A DNA stretch of 38,890 bases from a virus. The translations under genes were made by a program, and so were the position numbers. Below are positions 4,270 to 38,095 of the stretch, one piece after another. The notes beneath the pieces were generated by a model. It made no database searches. It was not told the DNA's origin and worked only from the letters and a program-made list of their open reading frames with translations. Each line of letters opens with the position of its first letter. Positions within the stretch are counted from its first letter, which is position 1. The DNA lies in IMG/VR virus record IMGVR_UViG_3300042988_001432, positions 1 through 38,890 of that record. The stretch is one strand, 5' to 3'.

Positions 4270-4845
4270 ATGGATTACCCGAGAGTAACAGAAATTTTGA
4301 AATGTTTTACCAGCTATGACCAAGTTCCTAAGGATATTCTCGACGAAGCAGCAGCACGAGGAAGTACCGTGCATGCTCTGTGCGCCGGAATTGCCAAAGG
4401 AGCATGGATTCCAGATGGCATGATTGGCGCAGAATACATGGGATATATAAATTCTTTCAAGAAATGGTCAGAGGCGCAAGTTAAAGAATTCATTATCATA
4501 GAGAAGCGATATCATAGCGCTGCGCTTAAATACTCGGGGCAGCTCGATTGCGTGATAACTGGCAGCGACGGAGAGCTGTATCTTGTTGATTTCAAGACAA
4601 GCTCGCGGCCGCAAAAGACCTATCCCGTACAGATGGCCGCCTACAATCATTTGCTAATCATGAATAACGTTCGAGTCAAGGGATCAATGCTGGTGTACCT
4701 CGATAAAAATGGCGAGTTCCCAAACATACATCTCATCGAAGACATGACCGAAGAATGGAACACATTCGTATCGGCACTCAACTGTTGGCACTATTTTCAC
4801 AAAGGTAAAAAGAATGGAAGTAAAGCAAGAAAAAAAGACACTTAA
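4270..4845 (+). CDS. PD-(D/E)XK exonuclease (RecB/lambda-Exo-like)
   Basis: The PD-(D/E)XK nuclease core is clear: H35 in a RGSTVHALC helix, E78, YSGQLDCVI with D93, the catalytic YLVDFKTS with D107 and K109, then QMAAY (121-125) as the following helix. These residues form the Mg2+-dependent active site of RecB/AddB and Cas4-type exonucleases. At 191 residues it is a stand-alone nuclease. It overlaps by 32 bases the ERF single-strand annealing gene, so the pair probably acts like lambda Exo/Beta. The nuclease resects double-strand ends and the annealing protein pairs the exposed strand for recombination or genome circularisation. Confidence 0.82.
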   Translation: MDYPRVTEILKCFTSYDQVPKDILDEAAARGSTVHALCAGIAKGAWIPDGMIGAEYMGYINSFKKWSEAQVKEFIIIEKRYHSAALKYSGQLDCVITGSDGELYLVDFKTSSRPQKTYPVQMAAYNHLLIMNNVRVKGSMLVYLDKNGEFPNIHLIEDMTEEWNTFVSALNCWHYFHKGKKNGSKARKKDT

Positions 4846-5461
4846 TATCTACCAGAAAATCTTAGGTGTCATGTCCGAACTAAAATACATTCAAAAGGGC
4901 TCAAACAAAGTCAATGGCATGTACAGCTTTGTTAGCCACGACCAAGTTACAGCTGCGATTCACCCGCTACTCGTAAAGCATGGCATTGTAATCGTCCCCA
5001 CAGTAGAGGAAATTAAGCAAGAAGGCAATCGCACACAGGTTCTTTTGCGAGTTCTGTTTGTTAGTGCTGATGTGGACCATAATTGTTATGTTGATGCAAA
5101 TAGATACTCTTTTAGCGTACTCTCTTGCGGGTATGGTATAGACTCAGGCGACAAGGGACCCGGCAAGGCGATCTCCTATGCCTACAAATACGCCCTTTTG
5201 AAGACGTTTTGCCTTGAGACGGGCGATGATGCAGATAACGATGCTAACGCGTCCTACGAGCCCGAGAAGTGCCTAGAATTCGATTTGCAGCTACCGATTG
5301 ATATGTCCGAAAAAGACCGTGCTAAGCTGGCAAAGTTCTTGGTTTATAGTGCGCAAACAATGAAGAAGCATGTCGAAGATGTTAAACGCGAGGCTGTAAA
5401 GCGCATGCCTGAGTTCATGACCGCATTTAAGAACTGGAGCCCTAAGAAGGAGAAAGAGTAA
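4814..5461 (+). CDS. erf: ERF-family single-strand annealing protein
   Basis: ERF proteins (named from phage P22) form rings on ssDNA and anneal complementary strands. The family core is visible: an N-terminal helix, GMYSFVSHDQVTAAIHPLL at 35-53, a beta segment, then CGYGIDSGDKGPGKAISYAY followed by KYALLKTFCLETGDDAD. This GD..G.GKA.SYA.K..L....L..GDD.D pattern is diagnostic of ERF. The C-terminal third (after about residue 145) is charged and helical. The protein is 215 residues long, its gene overlaps the upstream exonuclease gene, and its stop overlaps the start of the next gene by one base. Confidence 0.88.
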   Translation: MEVKQEKKTLNIYQKILGVMSELKYIQKGSNKVNGMYSFVSHDQVTAAIHPLLVKHGIVIVPTVEEIKQEGNRTQVLLRVLFVSADVDHNCYVDANRYSFSVLSCGYGIDSGDKGPGKAISYAYKYALLKTFCLETGDDADNDANASYEPEKCLEFDLQLPIDMSEKDRAKLAKFLVYSAQTMKKHVEDVKREAVKRMPEFMTAFKNWSPKKEKE

Positions 5462-7040: not shown

Positions 7041-7898
7041 TTAATCTAAGAACAATTGCGGGTCGTATGTGAATTCAGTATCGTACTGCGCAGATGTGCC
7101 AGGCATGATATCGCCGATTAGCACTATTGGATCGAGAGCCACGTTTGCGTCGGATCTAGTGCATGCGATATCGTCTCCGTCTACAGTTGGGCTGACCTCT
7201 AATCCGTCTACATTAACGTAGCCAGCTGAATTATTTGTCACCTGAATGAAGACGTGATAAGTTCCATCCACTACGCTGCCCGTTGGGATCTCAACTGAGT
7301 CTGTTGGGAAGGTGAGCGTCGCTGTTCCTAACACAGGCGGATTTGGGTCAATTGCTGGAATGTAGGGAGTAAGAACAACTGCTGTTGCATTGAGCACCTC
7401 TGTGTATACTTGGCCGTCAGGTGTAGATACGCCTAAGATTAACTGAAGAGGAATCGCATCGCCAGCTTCCAGACCCGGATCGGTGAATGTCACGGCGCCT
7501 GGATCGGTAGCAAACTCTGGCACGATAAACGACAAGCTAGCGCACTGATCGGCTACAAATGGGCTTTCGCCTGCGCCAGTTGCACCGGTCGCGCCAGCTG
7601 GGCCAGTTGCGCCTGTTGGGCCGACTGGGCCTGTTGAGCCATCAGATCCGCAAGAGCCAGAGCTGCCGCAATGCCCATGGTGACCGCGAGAGTTACCGGC
7701 AATTGCGCCAGCGATACCGCCCGCTACAATCGCGCCGCCAACTAAAAGGGCTGTTCTCCCCCATCCGCAGCCAGAATCACAGCACTCATCTTGTTGTTGG
7801 CAGCAATAGTCTACTGCTTCTGCTTTAGGTGGAATTGTTAGGAAACTTGCGCCGCAAATTGCAGCTATAAATAACTTGTAAATGCTTTGAATATTCAT
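7041..7898 (-). CDS. Exported collagen-like protein A (285 aa)
   Basis: Signal peptide at residues 1-28 (ends KAEA). It is followed by a cysteine-rich stretch (CCQQQDECCDSGCGWG) and a glycine-zipper hydrophobic segment (ALLVGGAIVAGGIAGAIAG, about residues 50-68). Next comes a His/Gly/Ser linker, then about nine Gly-X-X repeats (GPVGPTGATGPAGATGATGA). The remaining roughly 175 residues form a beta-rich domain with GTYHVFIQVT and a C-terminal TEFTYDPQLFLD. The same layout recurs in the gene at 8132. It could trimerise through the collagen segment and sit at or across a membrane. Whether it is a virion fibre, an adhesin or a host-modifying factor is open. It has its own candidate promoter and a strong terminator. 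Confidence 0.7.
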   Translation of the reverse strand: MNIQSIYKLFIAAICGASFLTIPPKAEAVDYCCQQQDECCDSGCGWGRTALLVGGAIVAGGIAGAIAGNSRGHHGHCGSSGSCGSDGSTGPVGPTGATGPAGATGATGAGESPFVADQCASLSFIVPEFATDPGAVTFTDPGLEAGDAIPLQLILGVSTPDGQVYTEVLNATAVVLTPYIPAIDPNPPVLGTATLTFPTDSVEIPTGSVVDGTYHVFIQVTNNSAGYVNVDGLEVSPTVDGDDIACTRSDANVALDPIVLIGDIMPGTSAQYDTEFTYDPQLFLD

Positions 7899-7933
7899 AC
7901 TAGCCTTTCTCCTTGTTTTTGAGGCTATTCGGC

Positions 7934-7961
7934 AGTATATAAATTAAAGTTTTTAGTAAAA
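7934..7961 (-). promoter_or_regulatory. Candidate promoter for collagen-like gene A
   Basis: On the minus strand TTTTAC (7961-7956), 16 bases, TATACT (7939-7934), in an AT-rich stretch between a terminator and the gene. The -10 is good and the -35 poor. A Shine-Dalgarno AAGGAG follows about ten bases before the ATG at 7898. Confidence 0.35.
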
Positions 7962-8002
7962 GAAATTTTTTAATTAGACGGAAAACTTTTGTCGGAGGGG
8001 GA

Positions 8003-8029
8003 ATAAAAAAGGAGGGACCGCCCCTCCTT
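8003..8029 (-). terminator. Rho-independent terminator of the fibre/collagen operon
   Basis: Minus-strand stem AAGGAGGG (8029-8022), five-base loop, CCCTCCTT (8016-8009), followed by TTTTTTATT. It stands about 100 bases after the stop of the collagen-like gene at 8132 and probably ends the long morphogenesis transcript. Confidence 0.85.
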
Positions 8030-8131
8030 AACACTCTAAGACTTGACGTACACCTACCATGGAGGAAGGCGTATGAACATTCAACTTGAAATTAGCCTAG
8101 TCGGATTTATTTGTTAACACAATTTTCTAAT

Positions 8132-8779
8132 CTACAGAAGATCATGACTATATGTGTACTCTGCGGTAATCTGAGTTTGGTCGACAGGATTGAATTCTAC
8201 GATTTCTGTCTGTTCTAGAATTGTCGTTACGCTGCGATCATTTCGGCTAGCTGTCGCTTCTACTATAAGATTTAGCACCTGCTGATCGAATCCTGCCCCT
8301 TTTGTGAATAGCAACACGCCAACGTGGTACGTGCCCATTACAGGGTTATCGACTAGTATCGCGCCAAGCTCTGCGTGTAGCTCGCCGCCAATGTGCACTG
8401 CGCTTAAGTGAGATGTCACGCCGTTAGGATAGGAAACGAAAGGAATTAGCATTGTGCCATTATCGGCCGCTTTCTCTGTCACGATCGAATATTTGAAACT
8501 CAGAGACGCGCCTTCGTCTACAGTAAAGCAGCCTTGCGCATCTAATCCATCCTGGCCAGCCTCTCCGCGTGAGCCTTTTGCCCCTTGCTCACCTGCTGGG
8601 CCTGCTATTTTCACGAGCTTTGGCCCTTTTAGCGATTGTACTGCGTAGCCTGTGCCTGCGCCGGCAATAGCACCAACGATAATTGCGCCCGTCATATACA
8701 GATCATCCTGATGCCTGTGACTGATCGCGCTTAGATGAAACATAGATAGCAGAGCTAAAATAGACAGAATTAATCTCAT
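8132..8779 (-). CDS. Exported collagen-like protein B (215 aa)
   Basis: Signal peptide (MRLILSILALLSMFHLSAIS) followed by a short His-rich linker, a glycine-zipper segment (TGAIIVGAIAGAGTGYA) and about eight Gly-X-X triplets (GPAGEQGAKGSRGEAGQDG). The C-terminal beta-rich domain begins GASLSFKY, contains GTYHVGVLLFTKGAGF and ends ITAEYTYSHDLL. The same landmarks occur in protein A (CASLSF, GTYHVFIQVT, EFTYDPQLFLD), so the two are paralogues. AGGAG lies six bases before the ATG, and the gene starts eight bases after the tail-fibre gene, so it is probably co-transcribed with the fibre genes. Confidence 0.7.
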   Translation of the reverse strand: MRLILSILALLSMFHLSAISHRHQDDLYMTGAIIVGAIAGAGTGYAVQSLKGPKLVKIAGPAGEQGAKGSRGEAGQDGLDAQGCFTVDEGASLSFKYSIVTEKAADNGTMLIPFVSYPNGVTSHLSAVHIGGELHAELGAILVDNPVMGTYHVGVLLFTKGAGFDQQVLNLIVEATASRNDRSVTTILEQTEIVEFNPVDQTQITAEYTYSHDLL

Positions 8780-23313: not shown

Positions 23314-23947
23314 TTATAATCTTTGGGTGCACAACAGACGTGTGATCCAGTTATCGTTTAGGAGGCGAGTCGCAAACGGATACTTGTAACCCACTGAGCC
23401 TCTTTGATTTAATGGGTCCGATGTACCAGAAGAACCAAGCGGCTTTACAATGAATTCAGCCTCTTTAGATCCTAGCTTTACAACACCATAAGCCTCTTGA
23501 CCTAAGATGATGTTGTTAAACACTGGCGGAGATGCATTTGTTGAATATCCGTTAGTGCTCAAGAGCCAGCGAACGTTGTTAGTTGAACCCCACTCAGCTT
23601 CTAACGCATCCATCGGGTTAGGATAGTTAGCAGCACTAAGGAAGTCCGCGCACGCTTCGAGGTCATTCTGAATTGTGACATCCATGAAGCCCCAATAGCT
23701 CGATCTCACTGGAGAGGTCGCAAAGCGATTTTCCCCTGGGATCGGCTTTGTCATCAGGCGCGCATTACCCAAGCGAAGAGCACGCACAGCATTCTTAATG
23801 TCAGCTGTCGTCACCTCGGTAGGTGTGTTTCCATTGATACCATTGCTACAAGAAATGCTAGATGCAGTCGCAACCATCATGTTTCTGATCAAAGTATCAA
23901 TGGTGAGTCCTAACTGTAACGATAGAACTCTTGTCGCTTCGTTTAAG
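23314..23947 (-). CDS. Major capsid protein, exon 2
   Basis: This is the C-terminal coding part (210 complete codons plus one base) of the major capsid protein. It joins exon 1 at a valine codon (GT from exon 1, C from here), giving QDRV-LNEATRVLSLQLGLTIDTLIR. That restores the N4-gp56-type capsid pattern ITD-V----D-VLNEA--LL--Q----ID-L-R. The rest contains NAVRALRLGNARLMTKP, YWGFMDVTIQNDLEACADFL and QEAYGVVKLGSKEAEFIVKP, in keeping with the long loop and C-terminal fold of this family. Alone, the open frame would start at an internal ATG (23892). Coordinates assume splicing of the group I intron at 23948-24746. Confidence 0.8.
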
Positions 23948-24746
23948 CTTTCTGTTACTTTCGGCTAGCGTTGCCTACTGACCATCTCTGGCGGGTCAAC
24001 CTCTTCGGATCGACCTCACTACCTTTATTTATTCGTAGTGTTCAGACTATCGCTTCCTCTTTCGAGGTCTTCTTATTTAGTCGTTCAGGCTGGTGTTTTA
24101 TTTTTATCTCATTTAAGATTGTATGGTTTTTAACAAAGGAGAATACATGCCTAAACTTAAACCCTATGATTTGTCTAAAGTTACAAGCACCGATCTCGCT
24201 TATTTGGCTGGTTTTATTGATGGAGAAGGATGTTTTTACATTGGTAATATCCAAAGCGTTTCGTATTGCACAGGGAATAAATATTCTAACTACCACTGCA
24301 TCCTTAAAGTCTCTAACAATTCCATTGAAGTTCTCGAATGGATTAATAAGACTTTTGGAGGAAGAATCACTACCCACAACAAAAAAACTAAATCTAAAGA
24401 TAGAAACTTTATTACCTATGAGGTTTATTTTACCGGCAATCTTCTTACCGATCTCACGGAAATGCTTCTTCCATATCTTAAGATCAAAAAACCGCAAGCC
24501 GAAGTTATGTTGAAAATGAGAGCCACATTCCCAAGAAGCGGCAGTAGAGGACCTAAAAAAGCCCTTGAGCCAATCCTTGTTTTGCGTGAAGAACTCCATA
24601 TTCAAATGCATCGACTTAACTCTCGTTTTAAAAACCATTCATCTAAAAAGGACCTTTATGAGCACCTTGCCCCTTGTTTGCCTGCTGCTTAAGCGGCCAG
24701 GCGGTCCAAGTCAATTAAAGAAGATTTATACAGAGCCTCTACGTTA
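23948..24746 (-). ncRNA. Group I intron in the major capsid gene
   Basis: A 799-nt self-splicing intron is deduced from RNA structure. P1: exon ACAGGGU (24753-24747) pairs with guide GCUCUGU (24736-24730), with U-G at the splice site. P10: GAG (24739-24737) with exon-2 CUU. P3: UCUUCUU (24724-24718) with AAGAAGA (24074-24068). P4: CUUG/CAAG (24710-24707/24676-24673). P5: GCCUG/CAGGC (24702-24698/24684-24680). P6: GGC/GCC (24671-24669/24090-24088), extended by GGUG/CACC and CUCAU/AUGAG. P7: GACUA/UAGUC (24082-24078/24049-24045). P8: CCUC-GAAA-GAGG (24067-24056). P9: CACUAC/GUAGUG. The last intron base is G (23948). An opposite-strand endonuclease gene fills the P6 extension. Confidence 0.88.
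24147..24692 (+). CDS. LAGLIDADG homing endonuclease, antisense inside the group I intron
   Basis: The motif LAYLAGFIDGEGCFYI (residues 17-32) is the dodecapeptide helix of LAGLIDADG endonucleases, with the metal-binding Asp/Glu of DGEG. There is one motif in 181 residues, so it should act as a homodimer and cut intron-less alleles to drive intron homing. The C-terminal region (EMLLPYLKIKKPQAEVMLKM) fits the second half of the fold. The start at 24147 has AAAGGAG upstream. Unusually, the gene reads against the intron and the capsid gene, so it needs its own promoter (none is clear). Its 3' end overlaps the P6, P4' and P5 strands of the ribozyme, and its stop codon lies within P5. Confidence 0.9.
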   Translation: MPKLKPYDLSKVTSTDLAYLAGFIDGEGCFYIGNIQSVSYCTGNKYSNYHCILKVSNNSIEVLEWINKTFGGRITTHNKKTKSKDRNFITYEVYFTGNLLTDLTEMLLPYLKIKKPQAEVMLKMRATFPRSGSRGPKKALEPILVLREELHIQMHRLNSRFKNHSSKKDLYEHLAPCLPAA

Positions 24747-25057
24747 ACCCTGTCTTGCACTGTGAACTGGACCTGATCGGTAATAACGCAGAAATTTCCA
24801 TACCACTTAATCTGGGTAGAGAAATCAGTTACCGCTAAGCTATCACCTGGAGGAGTCGTTCCATCCTGAATAGGCACTGTCGCAGCCGTAAGGGTAGCGT
24901 AGCGTCTAAAAATCATCTGATCGCCAGAGTTAAGAGGAATAGTTCTCTTCTGCGCGAACATGTCGTAAATGTAATAGGGTCGTGCCAGAGTCAGCAGAAG
25001 GCGGTCAAAATAGGTCCGCACTTCCGGTGGCACTTGAACTGTTGTTGTAATTGGCAT
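24747..25057 (-). CDS. Major capsid protein, exon 1 (N4-gp56-like)
   Basis: N-terminal 103 codons plus two bases of the capsid gene. Residues show the family features: PPEVRTYFDRLLLTLARPYY, the GDQMIFRRYATL strand, a VPIQDGTTPPGDSL loop, and IKWYGNFCVITDQVQFTVQD. Without splicing, translation would run 19 codons into the intron to a TAA at 24689, giving a 122-residue truncated product. Spliced to exon 2 the protein is 314 residues, a sensible size for this capsid family, and the join removes an otherwise out-of-place insert of about 20 residues. The gene follows the scaffold gene by 14 bases. Confidence 0.85.
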
Positions 25058-37026: not shown

Positions 37027-37227
37027 ATGAGCAAGAAGGAAACGCGGCACTTAAGCGTGCGAATACCAGCAGAGTTACACATAATGCTAATGAAGCTATC
37101 GATAGACTTGCAACTATCAGCAACAGAGATCATTGTCAAATATCTAGAATACCTTCAACAGCAGCATTACAAAAAGAGGAGTATACTAGATGAGAACTCA
37201 ACCGATGATTTCCAGCTGGATGAATGA
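37027..37227 (+). CDS. Ribbon-helix-helix protein next to the recombinase (66 aa)
   Basis: The strand ETRHLSVRIPAELHIMLMKL and helix LQLSATEIIVKYLEYLQQQH form a ribbon-helix-helix domain. An acidic tail ends DDFQLDE. It overlaps the recombinase gene by 38 bases, so both are probably co-expressed. It may regulate recombination or the operon. The Shine-Dalgarno is weak. Confidence 0.65.
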   Translation: MSKKETRHLSVRIPAELHIMLMKLSIDLQLSATEIIVKYLEYLQQQHYKKRSILDENSTDDFQLDE

Positions 37228-38095
37228 GAGCCTAGATAAATTCATTGCGCAGCTATCGCTAAGCAAGAGCCGGCCAACAGTTGAAGCATACAGATACGAC
37301 ATTGCAAAGTTCCTAGAGTACCTGCATGAAAACAAGATGAAGCGCATTAGCTCGCTGAAGACGGCGCACATTATTGACTATCTTGCTCACTGTAAGGCAG
37401 CAGGCAAGAGCGACGCAAGCGTGAATCGCTACTACATGGCCTTGCGCTCTTACTGTAAGTTCCTGCGGCAATCTAAGTCGATAGAGTCTGATCTCACGCA
37501 AGACGTTACAGCGCCAAGGAGCAAGCAAAAAGCTCCGAAGATACCAACACTTGAGGAAATGCAGCAAATCTTGAATGTGCCAGATGTTGAGACGCACACA
37601 GGCAGCAGAGACCGCGCGATCTTAGAGCTGCTATACTCTTCGGGCTTGCGCGCCTCTGAGCTGTGCGACCTAAACATAGAGGACTTTAAGGGAGATACTA
37701 TTGTCGTGAGATGTGGTAAGAGAAGCAAAACTAGAAGCGTGCCCGTCACAGAGCAAGCGGTAAATGCAATCAGTGCTTATATAGAAAAGTATCGAGGCAA
37801 GAAACATGGCCCACTATTTCAAACAAGCACAGGAAAGAGGCTTCGCCGAGAAGCTTTGTCTCGCTCGATTGGCAGCTATGCAAGAAAAGCTGGAGTTGAT
37901 AACGTGACAGCGCATACACTGAGACACGCTTGCGCGACACACTTGCTTGATCAAGGCGCAGACTTGCGATTGATACAAGAAGTACTGGGCCACAGCTCGA
38001 TAGCTGCAACACAGAGATACACGCACCTATCGAGTCGCAAAATGCAAGAAATGTTCCAAGCGTTTCATCCAAGGAAAGTACAACATAAGGAATAA
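37190..38095 (+). CDS. Tyrosine recombinase, XerC/XerD-like (301 aa)
   Basis: The N-terminal SAM-like core-binding domain (SRPTVEAYRYDIAKFLEYLH) is followed by a catalytic domain with all key residues. These are Arg154 in SSGLRASEL, Lys177 in CGKRSKTRSVP, His242 and Arg245 in HTLRHACATHLLD, His268 in VLGHSSIAATQRYTHL and nucleophile Tyr277. Length and sequence are closer to XerC/D than to lambda integrase. It may resolve genome multimers or integrate at a host dif-like site. GAGGAG eight bases upstream supports the ATG at 37190; an internal ATG at 37220 is the alternative. The RHH gene overlaps its start. Confidence 0.88.
   Translation: MRTQPMISSWMNESLDKFIAQLSLSKSRPTVEAYRYDIAKFLEYLHENKMKRISSLKTAHIIDYLAHCKAAGKSDASVNRYYMALRSYCKFLRQSKSIESDLTQDVTAPRSKQKAPKIPTLEEMQQILNVPDVETHTGSRDRAILELLYSSGLRASELCDLNIEDFKGDTIVVRCGKRSKTRSVPVTEQAVNAISAYIEKYRGKKHGPLFQTSTGKRLRREALSRSIGSYARKAGVDNVTAHTLRHACATHLLDQGADLRLIQEVLGHSSIAATQRYTHLSSRKMQEMFQAFHPRKVQHKE

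Follow-up and report, generated by a model that had tools for sequence, protein, structure and literature searches.

What is the DNA that divides the major capsid gene of an environmental phage into two reading frames, and how did it come to be there? The question is raised by a 38,890-nt stretch, herein called the window, which comprises positions 1 to 38,890 of the IMG/VR virus record IMGVR_UViG_3300042988_001432. Read without splicing, its minus strand contains a 122-codon ORF (25057–24689) and a second ORF ending at 23314, each of which alone matches its own part of phrog_1357. Exon 1 (24747–25057, minus strand, 311 nt, with the ATG start at 25057) corresponds to phrog_1357 positions 23–136, and exon 2 (23314–23947, minus strand, 634 nt including the stop) to positions 175–342. 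Joining ...GACAGGGT, which ends at 24747, to CTTAAACGAAGC..., which starts at 23947, yields a stop-free protein of 314 residues. As expected by the first-pass annotation, the joined protein belongs to the N4-gp56 major capsid proteins: it scores 195.5 bits against NCBIfam TIGR04387 (cutoff 60) over residues 4–308, thus above the cutoff across its full length. Apart from the insert, the capsid coding sequence is intact.

The limits of the insert were determined from alleles that lack it. A scan of IMG/VR with the joined capsid protein gave 80 relatives, 61 of which have an uninterrupted capsid gene of about equal length with 71–96% amino acid identity. All 61 read QDRVLNE(A/S)T(R/K)VLSLQ over the junction without any insertion, the same junction sequence as the QDRV-LNEATRVL that the first-pass annotation had obtained by its join. 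Since these empty-site alleles are continuous at the junction, the splice sites are fixed to the codon; they are fixed to the base by P1 and by the rule that the exon ends with U and the intron with G. Hence, the 799-nt insert (24746–23948) had been placed correctly to the base. An alternative join that retains 19 more codons, already disfavored in that annotation, was rejected, as these residues are missing from 61/61 intronless relatives. The palindrome GCTTAAGC (window 24686–24695, in the P5 loop) provides a stop codon on both strands, namely the TAA of the exon-1 frame 19 codons into the intron and the TAA of a gene running the other way; in several relatives with an intron at the same site, the exon-1 frame is likewise open up to a GC(A/T)GCTTAA stop.

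The phage is probably temperate, given a tyrosine integrase gene at 37190–38095 (plus strand, Pfam 2.3e-40), yet no capsid relative was found in GTDB genomes scanned with the capsid alignment. At 7041–8779 (minus strand), two proteins contain collagen-like G-x-y repeats; herein the Pfam Collagen match is below cutoff for 7041–7898, and the second protein was judged by eye.

The insert has the architecture of a group I intron (23948–24746, minus strand, 799 nt), with U as its first base after an exonic U and G as its last. Six further phage contigs in IMG/VR carry an intron at the identical position, with an exonic U followed by UAAC at the 5′ border and the terminal G followed by exonic CUUAAA at the 3′ border. 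The terminal G (G23948 in the window) recurs in 6/6 of these relatives. P1 (24730–24753) pairs the exon sequence ACAGGGU (24753–24747) with the guide GCUCUGU (24736–24730); it is paired in 7/7 introns, all of which have a U·G at the 5′ splice site (U24747·G24736 in the window). P3 is formed by UCUUCUU (24718–24724) and AAGAAGA (24068–24074), with compensatory changes in 5/7 pairs, and one other copy has UCGCCUU/AAGGCGA instead. The 3′ strand of P6/P6a, CACCAGCC (24088–24095), finds its partner GGC..GGUG near the 5′ end of the intron, again with 5/7 pairs compensatory. P7 (GACUA/UAGUC, with one pair varying between A-U, U-A, and G-C among the copies) encloses the P3 3′ strand and P8 (CCUC GAAA GAGG) at 24045–24082, and the covarying P9, P9.1, and P9.2 hairpins follow at 23979–24040; all of these elements lie on the minus strand. 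P10, in which the 3′ exon would pair with the guide sequence, is weak; it comprises by eye just 2–3 bp and is without conservation. A gap of 3 nt separates the 5′ strand of P7 from the 3′ strand of P3. Group IA introns possess P7.1/P7.2 at this place, for which a gap of this size would leave no room.

The fold was assessed in seven aligned cores from the same site, with the loop between the two P6/P6a strands and the P5 hairpin excluded; P5 was seen by eye and left out of the pair counts since its length varies. In these cores, 99.1% of cells are paired under the P1–P9 structure with its P3/P7 pseudoknot, and two-sided changes occur in 25 of 49 pairs, compared with a mean of 11.7 after shuffling and 2–10 for slid partners. 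The covariation score is 0.502 versus 0.048–0.118 for slid structures. Both the P3–P8 and the P4–P6 domain are thus present, with covariation in P3, P4, P6, P7, P8, and P9, and the inventory of the first-pass annotation (P1, P3, P4, P6, P7, P8 with its GAAA loop, P9, and the terminal G) is recovered and covaries in the seven introns.

A covariance model, R1, was built from the 3′ half only of the seven same-site cores. It matches the window at 23979–24088 (minus strand), the sequence from which it was in part built, and detects a core in all capsid inserts to which it was applied; the uninterrupted loci L002 and L003 give no match. ORF-less inserts of 223–247 nt elsewhere in the capsid gene have the same core. 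In 29 distinct R1 matches, whose alignment was fitted to the structure and is therefore biased toward it, pairing extends to 97.5% of cells, and compensatory changes occur in 18 of 24 pairs. The check proposed in the first-pass annotation, a search with the Rfam group I model (RF00028), came out negative: it gave no match to the window, neither at the gathering score nor at E 10. This is weak evidence against group I identity because the introns of T4 td (40 bits), T4 nrdB (36 bits), and the mycobacteriophage LittleE (31 bits) also stay below the gathering score of 50. These three are nevertheless found by Rfam at E below 1e-3 and the intron family of the window is not; since it is missed at permissive thresholds too, it is farther from the Rfam model than they are. 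The best R1 match in the T4 and LittleE stretches lies inside the nrdB intron (E 0.0066), with the P7 5′ strand probably misplaced.

The loop between the two P6/P6a strands, and with it most of the intron, is filled by a gene on the opposite strand. Its product is a LAGLIDADG homing endonuclease with the intact motif LAGFIDGEG; the gene (24147–24692, plus strand, 181 aa) lies antisense to the intron as well as to the capsid gene. It is preceded by the ribosome-binding site AAAGGAG (24135–24141, plus strand, read from the sequence), and similar sites precede the homologous endonuclease genes. The 189-aa ORF matches Pfam LAGLIDADG_1 (2.4e-8), and a profile search against the PDB leads to I-MsoI (1.8e-27). 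The AlphaFold model has a pLDDT of 81, with residues 163–181 below 50, and Foldseek relates the predicted fold to I-MsoI/I-CreI (E about 1e-8). Among seven copies, dN/dS (NG86) is mostly 0.1–0.25 where defined, and differences at codon positions 1, 2, and 3 number 717, 451, and 1548; judged from these substitutions, the gene is under purifying selection. The C-terminal ~19 codons overlap the antisense of the P4–P6 side of the core and are predicted to be disordered. A constrained dual coding of the core by this C terminus was considered and rejected, as the tail is variable, predicted to be disordered, and ends at different points in relatives.

A scan for promoters of the antisense gene gave nothing above chance, and 5′ hairpin folds upstream of it were neither above chance nor conserved. 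About 25 nt ahead of the ribosome-binding site, a stretch like TTCGTTTATACTATATG is conserved (window 24088–24147; equivalents in L082–L087 and L099), and it is accompanied by a −10-like TATACTAT in several copies. This could be a promoter, weaker in the window.

The distribution of intron and empty sites points to mobility. Phages that share the insertion site have capsids mostly only about 46–53% identical to that of the window over the greater part of their length and endonucleases that are 59–70% identical over their full length; the capsids of intronless relatives reach 96% identity. An exact exon run of 22 nt across the junction is shared with L083, compared with no more than 11 nt for any of 27 closely related intronless phages. 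When the exons are divided into 12-nt bins, only the two that adjoin the junction are clearly more similar to the distant intron carriers than to the close relatives. This local resemblance suggests recent homing, and its length fits a LAGLIDADG target together with a short co-converted stretch. Co-conversion need not account for all of it, as P1 pairing and a target-like site may themselves have required part of the match; selection for a target-like site would likewise be homing. The window also contains, at 4270–5461 (plus strand), genes for an exonuclease (phrog_298) and an ERF-type single-strand annealing protein, which could serve the repair step.

Several other readings of the locus were weighed. 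No intron at all would be needed if the capsid gene were a pseudogene, frameshifted or degraded, into which a free-standing endonuclease gene had been inserted, or if the locus held an intein or a split gene; a short exon 1 next to an endonuclease gene can indeed mimic a broken gene, and Rfam finds no intron. Such readings are very improbable in view of the exact joining, the covarying P1–P9 core at one position in seven sequences, and the same core in ORF-less inserts; moreover, inteins would be in frame, and capsid coding is otherwise intact. A group I intron with exact splice sites is hence supported as the sole reading that fits empty alleles, covariation, and protein continuity together. 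Least credible of all is the notion that a 198-aa sense ORF (24042–24638, minus strand) is the true intron gene and the antisense frame its shadow. This frame is free of stop codons in the window and almost so in relatives, but the substitutions at codon position 3 of the endonuclease fall on position 1 of the sense frame, and it is the antisense frame that matches known families; by this codon-position pattern, the sense ORF was rejected as a coding shadow.

It is also conceivable that the intron splices while the antisense endonuclease is an inactive passenger, the element now being inherited vertically or moved by other recombination. The lack of a recognizable promoter in the scan and the unconserved, disordered C-terminal tail speak in its favor, whereas purifying selection and the intact LAGLIDADG motif speak against it; so do the fact that distant phages have the intron and 61 closer relatives lack it, and the exon similarity near the junction, all of which point to recent mobility. 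We consider this reading improbable and regard a mobile group I intron with an antisense homing endonuclease as highly probable as a whole. The group I interpretation of the first-pass annotation thus stood; it was incomplete in that the antisense LAGLIDADG gene, the local exon match, and the further introns of the same capsid gene had been missed.

These further introns are numerous. The same capsid gene carries related elements in more than 100 other environmental phage sequences. With a profile built from the antisense endonucleases, 317 stretches were matched in IMG/VR, and the orientation figures rest on the best 80 of these, nine of which already belonged to the capsid comparison. Clustering at 90% identity groups these 80 loci into 62 clusters. 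In 79/80, the strand opposite to the endonuclease gene contains an intron core; the exception, L162, is cut by the contig end. All 132 R1 matches within the 80 loci are on the opposite strand, and so are the capsid exons in 80/80, all of them in the same capsid gene. Querying with a second endonuclease family (at aa 56 and elsewhere) gave opposite-strand cores in 57 of 76 newly fetched loci, 13 of the 57 being contigs already counted, and 14 distant loci with the same strand, mostly outside this capsid gene. In L245, L247–L254, L258, and L264, R1-type group I cores share their strand with distant LAGLIDADG genes; these loci are outside this capsid gene. A third endonuclease family, again of the LAGLIDADG type, sits in the same capsid gene (aa about 12–14, 88, and elsewhere) and is sense in 19/19 loci. 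In this sense family (L174–L192), the proteins of L075 and L079 end in ...EAIV, and their stop codon falls on the 3′ strand of P7 (GCGAUAGUCUGA). Orientation goes with the endonuclease family, and the figures describe loci chosen by their endonuclease, hence a sample biased with respect to frequency.

Inserts occur after about aa 35, 56, 87, 92, 104, 143, 230, and 290 of the capsid protein, with additional sites in distant relatives. Two introns are present in L075, L076, L080, and L085, and three in L086; four cores are interspersed among the capsid exons of L214 and L221, and L118 has five, the first of which precedes the recognizable capsid start. L246 and L113 also belong to the capsid genes with four or five cores between short exons.

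Compared with known systems, the closest arrangement is that of LittleE (JF937101), which contains a group I-type capsid intron of ~819 bp, the splicing of which was demonstrated by RT-PCR and N-terminal sequencing, with a LAGLIDADG gene on the bottom strand (PMC3706429). A capsid intron with an antisense endonuclease is therefore not new. The two systems share the major capsid gene as host, an exon ending in U, an intron ending in G, and an opposite-strand LAGLIDADG gene. LittleE is nevertheless not a member of the family in the window, since R1 gives no match in its stretch (L093) at E 10 and its endonuclease is 18% identical to that of the window in alignment; it represents a different intron family in a different phage group and a single case, as opposed to the widespread family described here. 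The T4 td and nrdB introns also combine a group I core with an internal endonuclease gene (I-TevI and I-TevIII), but these genes are sense and belong to other families (GIY-YIG and HNH); the short P7–P3 spacing of the window is a further difference.

The endonuclease itself resembles I-CreI/I-MsoI in having one LAGLIDADG motif and the same fold, with about 22% identity. These enzymes originate from introns in algal organelle rRNA genes. Isolate phages contain distant relatives of the endonuclease, and no antisense capsid intron gene was recognized among the matches listed; the relative in Caulobacter phage CcrRogue, the sole one whose context was read, is free-standing. Other group I introns described with an endonuclease gene in antisense orientation are mainly those of nuclear rDNA; an example is Dsq.L2066 of Didymium, in which a His-Cys box gene antisense to the intron is expressed and the homing site is cut (PMC9548176). 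The opposite-strand gene is what it has in common with the window, whereas it is a group IE intron of eukaryotic rDNA with its gene in P9, for which an RNA polymerase II transcript was proposed. A literature search, in which few subscription journals were covered, yielded one phage capsid case (LittleE) and no phage family of this kind.

In the preferred reading of a mobile intron, the capsid transcript (minus strand) would fold into the P1–P9 ribozyme, which would cut after U24747 and ligate the exon to C23947, giving back the 314-residue capsid. From the plus strand of the P6a loop region, a presumably homodimeric LAGLIDADG endonuclease of the I-CreI/I-MsoI kind would be translated separately and would cut intronless capsid alleles at a ~22-bp site across the junction. 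The break would then be repaired by recombination, perhaps with the ERF protein and exonuclease that the phage itself encodes, and the intron would be copied along with short flanking exon sequence. Self-splicing, cleavage at the junction, homing, and production of the endonuclease from an antisense transcript are what we infer from the features described above; the antisense gene probably encodes the enzyme that spreads the intron.

Why the gene should be antisense is a matter for a more tentative proposal, one we hold to be rather doubtful. The placement may be an adaptation fixed in the endonuclease family, giving the gene its own promoter and uncoupling it from late capsid transcription while keeping its ribosomes off the ribozyme as it folds; capsid splicing may also be held down by the antisense RNA until late infection, with the capsid gene being a battleground in which as many as four or five introns coexist. 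Standard phage gene callers would readily fragment or overlook capsid genes with that many introns, and this intron family escapes Rfam. An orientation that is constant over many insertion sites, beside a family that is always sense in the same gene, provides a natural comparison for why orientation matters.
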